64,000 nt of DNA from Bacteroidota bacterium. Lineage in GTDB: Bacteria > Bacteroidota > Ignavibacteria > UBA10030 > UBA8401. The translations under genes and the position numbers were made by a program. A model generated the notes under the pieces. It ran no database searches and was not told the DNA's origin. It saw only the letters and a list, made by a program, of their open reading frames with translations. Positions 48,442 to 54,763 of this stretch are shown here, piece by piece (the first letter of the stretch is position 1; each line of letters begins with the position of its first letter). The stretch covers positions 1 to 64,000 of the forward strand of contig JAJYOK010000015.1 in NCBI GenBank assembly GCA_021796215.1, in the 5' to 3' direction.

Positions 48442-48514
48442 GGGGCTGTAGCTCAGTTGGGAGAGCGCTTCGTTCGCAACGAAGAGGTCGTCGGTTCGAT
48501 CCCGATCAGCTCCA
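48442..48514 (+). tRNA. tRNA-Ala(CGC)
   Basis: 73-nt cloverleaf. Acceptor stem GGGGCTG/CAGCTCC (one G-U) with discriminator A, D-arm GCTC...GAGC, anticodon stem CTTCG/CGAAG with loop TTCGCAA giving anticodon CGC, variable loop, and TPsiC arm with GGTTCGATC. The next bases are CA, so CCA is not fully encoded. A displaced copy of its 3' end follows 103 bp downstream. Confidence 0.95.
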
Positions 48515-48587
48515 CAAGACAATTTACGATAATTGGTAACTGCGCTTCATTTTTCAGAACCGTGAGGGCGTGGCGCCACAGGCGCCA

Positions 48588-48618
48588 AGGTCGTCGGTTC
48601 GATCCCGATCAGCTCCAC
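48588..48618 (+). pseudogene. Displaced 3' fragment of tRNA-Ala
   Basis: 31 bases identical to 48485-48515, running from the variable loop through the TPsiC arm to the acceptor end plus one base. The 5' part of a tRNA is absent. The 72 bp between carry a GGCGCC-rich palindrome (GTGGCGCCAC, 48570-48579) and no ORF. It looks like the leftover of an insertion that rebuilt the tRNA, or of a partial tandem duplication. Confidence 0.85.
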
Positions 48619-54237: not shown

Positions 54238-54270
54238 TTCAAGCTGTGTGAAAAAAAAGAAATGTACAAC

Positions 54271-54305
54271 AAAAAAGTCTTTGCAAAACAGCAAAGACTT
54301 TTTTT
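54271..54305. terminator. Bidirectional terminator between merR and the tRNA-Pro locus
   Basis: Ten-bp stem AAGTCTTTGC/GCAAAGACTT with A and T runs on both sides (54271-54305). It ends merR on the plus strand and the displaced tRNA-Pro unit on the minus strand. Confidence 0.9.
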
Positions 54306-54314
54306 ATGCAATGT

Positions 54315-54390
54315 CGGAACGGCGGGATTCGAACCCGCGACCCCTACCACCCCAAGTTCCAAAGGAATCCCTTTGGGAGTAGTGCGCTAG
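54315..54390 (-). pseudogene. Displaced, hairpin-interrupted 3' part of tRNA-Pro
   Basis: Bases 54315-54356 and 54379-54390 are identical to 54690-54731 and 54732-54743 of the intact tRNA-Pro. Between them a 22-nt hairpin sequence (54357-54378) interrupts the anticodon stem. The acceptor 5' strand and most of the D-arm are missing, so it cannot be a tRNA. The GIY-YIG stop codon lies in its CTAG. Confidence 0.92.
54357..54378. repeat. 22-nt hairpin inserted in the displaced tRNA fragment
   Basis: Perfect 7-bp stem CCAAAGG/CCTTTGG with loop AATC, flanked by TT and GA. It is absent from the intact tRNA at the same point, so it is a clean insertion. Confidence 0.85.
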
Positions 54391-54656
54391 GGGATTGATA
54401 ATGGCTTTTTCAGCTTGCTTTTTATTTCTTGAAGCTCCTTCCAGCCTTCAGGAGATTTTAAGAAATGTTCTCGTCCCATTGCTTGTGCTCGAGTATGAAA
54501 TGTTTCATAGTAAATAAGTTCCCACGGAAGATATGGCTTTGTTGAAAACATTTCGCCGCGGTTGTGGCGTTGTAATCGTGATTTCAGATTGGAAGTTTGT
54601 CCAAGATAATAGCGATCAAATTTTTGGCTTTTCAATATATAAAAATGGTAGCTCAT
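54387..54656 (-). CDS. Small GIY-YIG nuclease inserted at tRNA-Pro
   Basis: 89-aa protein consisting of one GIY-YIG domain. FYILKS and YYLGQT stand for the GIY and YIG strands, LQRHNRG carries the catalytic Arg, and a downstream ETFHTRAQAMGREHF helix follows. This resembles the UvrC/YhbQ branch of single-domain nucleases. The ATG follows the T run of the tRNA-Pro terminator with no Shine-Dalgarno, and the TAG stop belongs to the displaced tRNA fragment. No integrase or transposase is present. The gene looks more AT-rich than its neighbours. I infer the nuclease mobilises the unit into tRNA genes. Confidence 0.88.
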   Translation of the reverse strand: MSYHFYILKSQKFDRYYLGQTSNLKSRLQRHNRGEMFSTKPYLPWELIYYETFHTRAQAMGREHFLKSPEGWKELQEIKSKLKKPLSIP

Positions 54657-54743
54657 AAAAAAAGTCTCACAAGGAGACTTTCATGTAGTCGGAACGGCGG
54701 GATTCGAACCCGCGACCCCTACCACCCCAAGGTAGTGCGCTAG
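54391..54743 (-). mobile_element. Candidate tRNA-targeting GIY-YIG element (353 bp)
   Basis: The unit begins in the D-loop of tRNA-Pro and supplies a new 3' part of the tRNA (54 nt). It adds a terminator and the GIY-YIG gene, and ends where the old 3' part of the tRNA resumes. Thus the upstream tRNA is whole and the old tail is displaced. The flanking direct repeat is 54 nt apart from the later 22-nt insertion. The boundaries are exact by sequence; mobility is inference. Confidence 0.7.
54654..54681 (-). terminator. Terminator of intact tRNA-Pro, abutting the GIY-YIG start codon
   Basis: Stem AAAGTCTC/GAGACTTT with a 5-nt loop, then TTTT on the minus strand running straight into the ATG of the nuclease gene at 54656. 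Any expression of the nuclease must read through it or start inside. Confidence 0.85.
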
Positions 54744-54763
54744 CCGGGCTGCGCTACGTTCCG
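54690..54763 (-). tRNA. tRNA-Pro(GGG)
   Basis: 74-nt cloverleaf on the minus strand. Acceptor stem CGGAACG/CGTTCCG, D-arm GCGC...GCGC, anticodon stem CTACC/GGTAG with loop TTGGGGT giving anticodon GGG, TPsiC arm CGCGGGTTCGAATCCCG. CCA not encoded. The 3' 54 nt are duplicated downstream at 54315-54390. Confidence 0.95.

Follow-up and report, generated by a model that had tools for sequence, protein, structure and literature searches.

What kind of unit places the gene of a small nuclease between an intact tRNA gene and a second, partial copy of the same tRNA? The locus that raises this question lies in the window, the whole stretch of 64,000 nucleotides analysed here (positions 1-64,000 of the forward strand of contig JAJYOK010000015.1, assembly GCA_021796215.1), which belongs to Bacteroidota bacterium (UBA8401), the genome labelled G000. 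Along the minus strand, an intact tRNA-Pro(GGG) gene is followed by a terminator-like hairpin, a GIY-YIG open reading frame (ORF) and an interrupted second copy of tRNA nt 21-76 (54390-54313). The parts of the locus are listed below in this order; G001 is a relative in which the site is empty.

54688-54763, minus strand: intact tRNA-Pro(GGG) (ARAGORN)
54657-54682, minus strand: terminator-like hairpin GAAAGTCTCCTTGTGAGACTTTTTTT, insert-borne, downstream of the tRNA and upstream of the nuclease start codon (from the sequence; the G001 tRNA has a different terminator)
54387-54656, minus strand: stand-alone GIY-YIG nuclease ORF, 89 aa (PF01541, E 1e-13)
54379-54390, minus strand: copy of tRNA nt 21-32, which opens the interrupted downstream copy and holds the ORF stop codon (BLAST of the tRNA against the locus)
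54357-54378, minus strand: 22-nt double hairpin, TCCCAAAGGGA followed by TTCCTTTGGAA, a clean insert between tRNA nt 32 and 33 and a dispersed genomic repeat
54313-54356, minus strand: tRNA nt 33-76, the displaced native 3' part (matches the intact copy at 100% identity; the native terminator and the MerR gene come next, as in empty G001)
54266-54312, minus strand: terminator native to the tRNA, here 3' of the displaced copy (homologue of the stretch immediately 3' of tRNA-Pro in empty G001)

The intact gene is the sole Pro(ggg) gene among the 46 tRNA genes above cut-off in the window genome, and the ORF ends at a TAG inside the D-loop sequence of the tRNA. The two tRNA copies are spaced 353 bp apart before the hairpin and 375 bp after it (i.e., an insert of 375 bp, or of 353 bp without the hairpin). 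Within the locus the 44-nt exact second copy has an E value of about 1e-19, and a random gene lies this close to a tRNA with a probability of about 1.6%; together with the recurrence of the layout at many tRNA genes of this genome and its relatives, these figures exclude a chance origin. There is no group I intron ribozyme around the ORF: a scan of the loci against Rfam at the gathering score returns tRNAs only, and the tRNA is intact without splicing.

A sequence-only reading of this DNA had described the same minus-strand order of tRNA-Pro, terminator, 89-aa GIY-YIG gene and second tRNA 3' copy, which ARAGORN, the PF01541 match and BLAST of the tRNA confirm. The second copy is indeed a 3' copy, but it is not the one continuous 54-nt stretch of that account, since the 22-nt insert separates nt 21-32 from nt 33-76; likewise, the 353-bp unit holds when it is measured before or without the hairpin, but becomes 375 bp when the hairpin is counted. 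The nuclease was correctly taken as the sole protein of the unit: no other ORF of note and no integrase gene lie between the tRNA copies at this locus. The downstream copy had also been rightly called the displaced old 3' part of the gene, as a comparison with relatives makes clear.

Synteny around the window locus is kept within the genus, and the site is occupied in G002, whose nuclease has 87% protein identity. In G001 the Pro-GGG site is empty, and the uninterrupted tRNA is followed directly by the terminator found behind the displaced copy in the window, and then by the MerR gene. Because the native terminator and the MerR gene adjoin the tRNA in empty G001 and the interrupted copy in the window, the interrupted copy is the displaced native 3' end. 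The site is also empty in G007, which belongs to the same family; judged against the empty loci of G001 and G007, the intact tRNA-Pro(GGG) of the window joins a native 5' part to a 3' part supplied by the element. Further sites differ in the same manner among relatives. The Leu-CAA site is occupied in G000 (in the mirror layout called type B below) and empty in G001 and G002, the Pro-CGG site is empty in G001, and at Ser-GGA an extra type B unit stands before the tRNA in G002, where G000 has an uninterrupted promoter and tRNA. Occupied and empty alleles of one site exist, as they do for homing endonuclease elements; by themselves, empty sites do not distinguish gain from precise loss.

The window ORF matches PF01541, the GIY-YIG domain, above cut-off (E 1e-13), and among 28 relatives Y6, Y17, G19, R27 and H31 are invariant and E63 is present in at least 90%. 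The AF2 model of the 89-aa protein has a pLDDT of 92; its top Foldseek matches are UPF0213 and Slx1, the I-TevI catalytic domain (Z 5.3) and the UvrC N-terminal domain are also matched, and the Z values are middling. Motif and modelled fold together place the window protein in the GIY-YIG nuclease superfamily. The UPF0213 or YhbQ-type small GIY-YIG proteins (PDB 1ywl, 1zg2), which have fold and size in common with it, provide its best sequence and Foldseek match, but their sequence similarity is weak (E 0.008). Matches to NCBIfam, PHROGs and PADLOC are also weak and give no specific assignment. A comparison with the G002 ortholog gives a dN/dS of about 0.07, indicating purifying selection. The length of 89 aa leaves no room for a separate DNA-binding domain, and a protein without one is unusual for a site-specific homing enzyme, which counts against a homing reading. 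Elsewhere in the window genome, more divergent GIY-YIG ORFs (L009, L010, L014) have no tRNA nearby, and a UvrC-like frame of 638 aa (L018) also matches the GIY-YIG domain.

The window locus is one of many. In the window genome, GIY-YIG ORFs with partial copies of the same tRNA also occur at tRNA-Ser(GGA), Ser(CGA), Ser(TGA), Asn, Pro(CGG) and Leu(CAA). When 60 related genomes were searched with the window protein and the neighbourhoods of the matches were examined, 50 genomes gave matches, with 139 distinct GIY-YIG ORFs; 114 of these lie within 400 bp of a tRNA gene, all but one (113/114) in the orientation of the tRNA, and 102 of the 114 are accompanied by partial copies of the same tRNA. The single opposite-strand case is an apparent association with tRNA-Lys (L020/L027), which was rejected as a contig-end fragment of a Ser-CGA unit. 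At least 22 tRNA species are targeted in this set. Two layouts are found: type A, in which the intact tRNA is followed by the nuclease and a displaced 3' copy (67 cases), and its mirror image, type B, in which a displaced 5' copy is followed by the nuclease and the intact tRNA (46 cases). In many units (L013, L067, L083 and others) the nuclease start codon lies a few nucleotides 3' of the tRNA, or the stop codon a few nucleotides 5' of it, so the mRNA may be released by tRNA processing.

An alignment of all target types (A1) had no stretch conserved enough for collection scans, and the closer set A2 was used instead. A scan of named genomes found 251 relatives; the 80 best loci contain 92 ORFs, of which 71 lie close to a tRNA, every one of the 71 on its strand, and 60 have partial copies. 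Among the hosts in which an ORF is linked to a tRNA are Bacteroidota, Ignavibacteria, several Patescibacteria, Chloroflexota, Neomarinimicrobiota, Marinamargulisbacteria, an Endomicrobiales MAG, a Micavibrio MAG, and cultured Cyclobacterium and Lunatimonas. Stacks of two to four nuclease ORFs at one tRNA occur at 19 of 176 tRNA loci, with Cyclobacterium among the examples. A scan of viral contigs with the Ser-type nuclease found no relatives, and searches of phages and plasmids gave three weak matches only and no carrier. No description of GIY-YIG elements in bacterial tRNA genes was found in the searchable literature, beyond whose reach lie most subscription papers and preprints. The elements, of homing type and rebuilding the bacterial tRNA genes that they target, form a real, widespread and apparently undescribed family.

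Evidence for movement comes from one further locus and from the nuclease tree. At the Ser-CGA/Ser-GGA locus, two blocks of element plus tRNA are 94-100% identical between G000 and G002, and most windows further out are 63-86% identical, some being higher beside the elements. The Ser-GGA nuclease has a dS of 0.15 between the two genomes, the ORF between the two tRNAs 0.90, and a downstream ORF 2.2. At this one locus, in this one genome pair, the pattern supports recent homing or conversion with short co-conversion tracts, of which it is the expected trace. For the Pro-GGG nuclease of the window, dS between the same genomes is about 0.98, of the order of nearby host genes, and the element looks vertically inherited between them.

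In a tree of 200 nuclease domains, the anticodon label changes 34 times for the 60-genome set, compared with 87 in shuffles, and the host family 58 times, compared with 72. The nearest nuclease relative in another genome has the same anticodon in 127 of 175 cases (6% expected). Nuclease lineages thus specialise on one tRNA, and different hosts have the same lineages. The sequence-only reading had named several points to check in relatives, and none of the refuting outcomes that it listed was observed. The combination of tRNA, GIY-YIG ORF and second tRNA copy is found for 102 of the 139 ORFs; empty sites are present in genomes of the same genus and the same family; many other tRNA targets are used; and in the nuclease tree the grouping by tRNA target is much stronger than that by host family. 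Absent from that account were the double hairpin inside the copy, the mirror-image layout and how large the family is.

The 22-nt insert of the window copy, TCCCAAAGGGATTCCTTTGGAA, is a pair of neighbouring hairpins, TCCC-AAA-GGGA and TTCC-TTT-GGAA. Exact matches to the surrounding 27-bp stretch occur at three other places in the window genome, and there are several near-exact copies. The same double hairpin also lies inside a larger palindromic repeat of this genome (L003-L008), with outer arms like GATGGACTCC and GGAGTCCATC. Breaks were surveyed in 125 unique displaced copies, counting inserts of at least 12 nt; these are mostly clean and of stereotyped lengths (22, 30, 20 nt, etc.). A hairpin stem of at least 5 is present in 112 of 137 inserts (30% in random pieces), and tandem double hairpins make up 22 of 85 short inserts (0.2% after shuffling). 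By position (n=112), inserts exceed expectation in the D-loop (32 vs 17) and the T-loop (23 vs 11) and are depleted in stems (34 vs 58). The excess in the D- and T-loops is about twofold, but strict insertion into loops was rejected, with 34 of the 112 inserts in stems.

Type B copies often end near the anticodon. The nt 30-35 window is kept intact in no displaced Pro-GGG copy, an outcome that random break placement gives at a similar rate of about 1 in 10, and this only suggests that the Pro-GGG target lies close to the anticodon arm. A pattern in which all displaced copies of a tRNA type have lost one common site was also considered, but it falls short of significance under random break placement (p about 0.1 for each of four of the five types), and a mapped cleavage site is therefore not claimed. 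At Pro-CGG, Ser-TGA and L073, hairpins of the same kind flank the intact tRNA on both sides, an arrangement that does not fit a single insertion.

The window holds a second partial copy of a tRNA:

48588-48618, plus strand: copy of nt 44-74 of tRNA-Ala(CGC), 72 bp behind the intact gene (48442-48515)

This copy matches the last 31 nt of the tRNA exactly and is preceded by a hairpin (TGGCGCC..GGCGCCA), and no nuclease gene lies between it and the intact gene. In relatives (loci L126, L129, L139, L154), a GIY-YIG ORF is found at tRNA-Ala(CGC). The Ala copy may be read as a nuclease-less scar of the process seen at Pro-GGG. Partial copies without a nuclease gene, mostly with hairpins, occur in the window genome at Ala-CGC, Val-CAC, Asp, Gly-CCC, Pro-TGG and Thr-CGT, and these too are read, from their sequence, as probable scars.

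Several other arrangements at tRNA genes were observed. At tRNA-Thr(CGT) of the window genome (L023, 800-1650), the intact tRNA heads five tandem repeats of about 109 bp, each with the 18-nt 3' end of tRNA-Thr behind hairpins and no nuclease gene. At tRNA-Ser(TGA) of the same genome (L019, 1219-1405), three tandem 62-bp repeats of the 5' half, with the anticodon arm replaced, stand upstream of the intact tRNA, and repeats of about 104 bp at a Cyclobacterium tRNA-Pro(GGG) (L238) are similar to this array. The tRNA-Leu(CAA) segment of G000 (L016) is oriented opposite to that of G001 and G002 (L274/L275) relative to its neighbours. At tRNA-Met(CAT) (L024, 1501-2380), an 85% identical copy of the last 41 nt lies 765 bp downstream; no GIY-YIG ORF was found in the uncharacterised stretch between, which is possibly another kind of tRNA-targeting insert.

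The unit is probably a minimal mobile element of the homing type, whose sole gene encodes a stand-alone GIY-YIG nuclease and which carries a piece of tRNA that restores the target gene. Observed directly are its architecture, alleles with and without it, nuclease lineages that keep to one tRNA target across hosts, recent similarity limited to the element at one locus, and stacking; spread by cutting of tRNA genes and repair copying would fit this evidence. The nuclease would cut within the tRNA sequence of a gene that is still unoccupied, for Pro-GGG perhaps close to the anticodon arm. Recombinational repair, with the conserved tRNA halves as homology arms, would then copy the element in and rebuild the tRNA. 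In type A, the native 5' half would be completed by the 3' half of the element, with the nuclease gene next and the old 3' half and native terminator pushed downstream. In type B, the native promoter and 5' half would stay upstream, followed by the nuclease gene and a new 5' half from the element that completes the tRNA. Rebuilding would leave the tRNA open to a further hit, and the stacked arrays would find their explanation in this. The direct repeat would be broken by the hairpins of the displaced half, which probably stabilise the insert and may block recutting. Against the homing reading stand the persistence of any target inside the tRNA in the rebuilt intact gene, the displaced copies being the interrupted ones, the apparently vertical inheritance of the window element between G000 and G002, and the failure of the searches to find a phage or plasmid carrier.

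Three other explanations have to be weighed against a homing-type element. The nuclease could be an immobile host gene that sits beside tRNAs for a functional reason (e.g., tRNA processing or repair), the partial copies being by-products of tandem duplication. That the ORFs lie on the tRNA strand, are mostly intact and evolve under purifying selection agrees with such a role, but the ORFs are patchy among congeners with clean empty sites, have many different tRNA targets within one genome, and are placed, in either mirror layout, with the intact tRNA on one side and the displaced piece on the other; element blocks are also far more similar than their flanks, and a host gene is a very unlikely explanation. 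Even less probable is the scar of an integrative element, in which a tyrosine recombinase inserted at the tRNA 3' end, exchange of att sites rebuilt the tRNA, and the integrase was lost and the GIY-YIG gene left. Integrases use tRNA 3' ends and rebuild them, and the type A layout looks similar. Here, however, the window unit has no ORF besides the nuclease, a unit of about 350 bp recurs with no room for an integrase, units stack, and type B has 5'-end half-copies, which are not the product of att sites at tRNA 3' ends; such a scar is very improbable.

It is also conceivable that the small palindromes are themselves the mobile agents, that they insert in tRNA loops where only tRNA duplications survive, and that the GIY-YIG gene is a passenger or an enzyme that serves them. 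Palindromes are present in most displaced copies, often as clean inserts and enriched in the D- and T-loops, and hairpin-bearing partial copies without a nuclease gene are found at Ala, Val, Asp, Gly and Thr. Yet the nuclease lineages track tRNA identity, the ORF sequences are conserved, the units move with the ORF, and nuclease-less copies can be remnants after loss of the ORF, so that palindromes as the moving agents are very unlikely.

The closest known systems for a homing-type element of this design are the mobile endonuclease ORFs of fungal mitochondria that carry a replacement gene end, found in atp6 of Allomyces macrogynus and in atp6, atp9, cox2 and nad3 of Glomus (PMC3630166). Common to the fungal and the bacterial cases are an endonuclease ORF lodged in a gene, a substitute gene end that comes with it, and a native end displaced to a downstream position; the ORF of Glomus atp9 is a GIY-YIG. 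Compared with empty G001, the window likewise has an ORF, a substitute gene end and a displaced native end, but not in a mitochondrial protein gene. The fungal ORFs are larger, use 3' ends only, and occur in organelle protein genes with a clearly diverged foreign end (PMC3630166), whereas the bacterial family occupies chromosomal tRNA genes in 5' and 3' versions, with a lone domain of about 80-90 aa, stacked arrays and hairpin-bearing displaced copies. At one Moranbacteria locus, the T-arm of the intact tRNA differs from the displaced one, which matches a relative's tRNA; this mismatch recalls the signature of a foreign end seen in the fungal cases, but only one such example was found, and the window copies are identical.

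SegB of T-even phages, a GIY-YIG homing endonuclease that cuts within tRNA genes at RAWTSGAAC (PMC13096335), is likewise a GIY-YIG enzyme tied to tRNA genes. Read as its reverse complement, the tRNA T-loop GTTCGAATC fits this motif, and hairpins interrupt the motif in several displaced copies of the bacterial family. SegB acts in phage tRNA clusters, and gene-rebuilding half-copies are not described in the available text (PMC13096335); in addition, the break of the window element is in the anticodon arm, not the T-loop, and no close sequence relationship to SegB was found. Repetitive or double hairpin elements in the mitochondria of fungi and sponges are similar small tandem hairpins, in RNA genes and intergenic DNA, but they are mitochondrial, and the accessible portion of the source does not connect them with a nuclease and a rebuilt tRNA (PMC2800124). 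Integrative elements that target tRNA genes also insert into a tRNA and restore its end; the bacterial family differs in having no integrase, in its mid-tRNA junctions and in its use of both tRNA ends. By analogy, the design resembles that of the fungal endonuclease ORFs and phage SegB in the way it would work, but it is found in bacterial chromosomes, with a lone nuclease domain and both tRNA ends.

A bolder and more doubtful proposal is that these loci represent an unrecognised class of bacterial mobile elements that spans phyla, in which a GIY-YIG domain on its own would home into tRNA genes, restore them from the 5' or the 3' side, and stack because its target is regenerated. Tentatively, the nuclease and the double hairpins may then form one system, in which hairpins enter tRNA loops that have been cut and thereby protect the displaced copy from recutting and recombinational loss. 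Essential, highly conserved and often single-copy, tRNA genes would offer a selfish nuclease an ideal universal target, since homology arms common to species come with the tRNA, but only if the element repairs the damage that it causes. The family described here appears to repair its target from both ends with one protein of about 80-90 aa and no intron, intein or integrase. It opens to test how a lone GIY-YIG domain would recognise a single tRNA gene and how hosts survive an element that regenerates its own target, and it bears on the reason for the presence of tRNA fragments and stacked half-tRNAs in bacterial genomes, where they can mislead the annotation of tRNAs.
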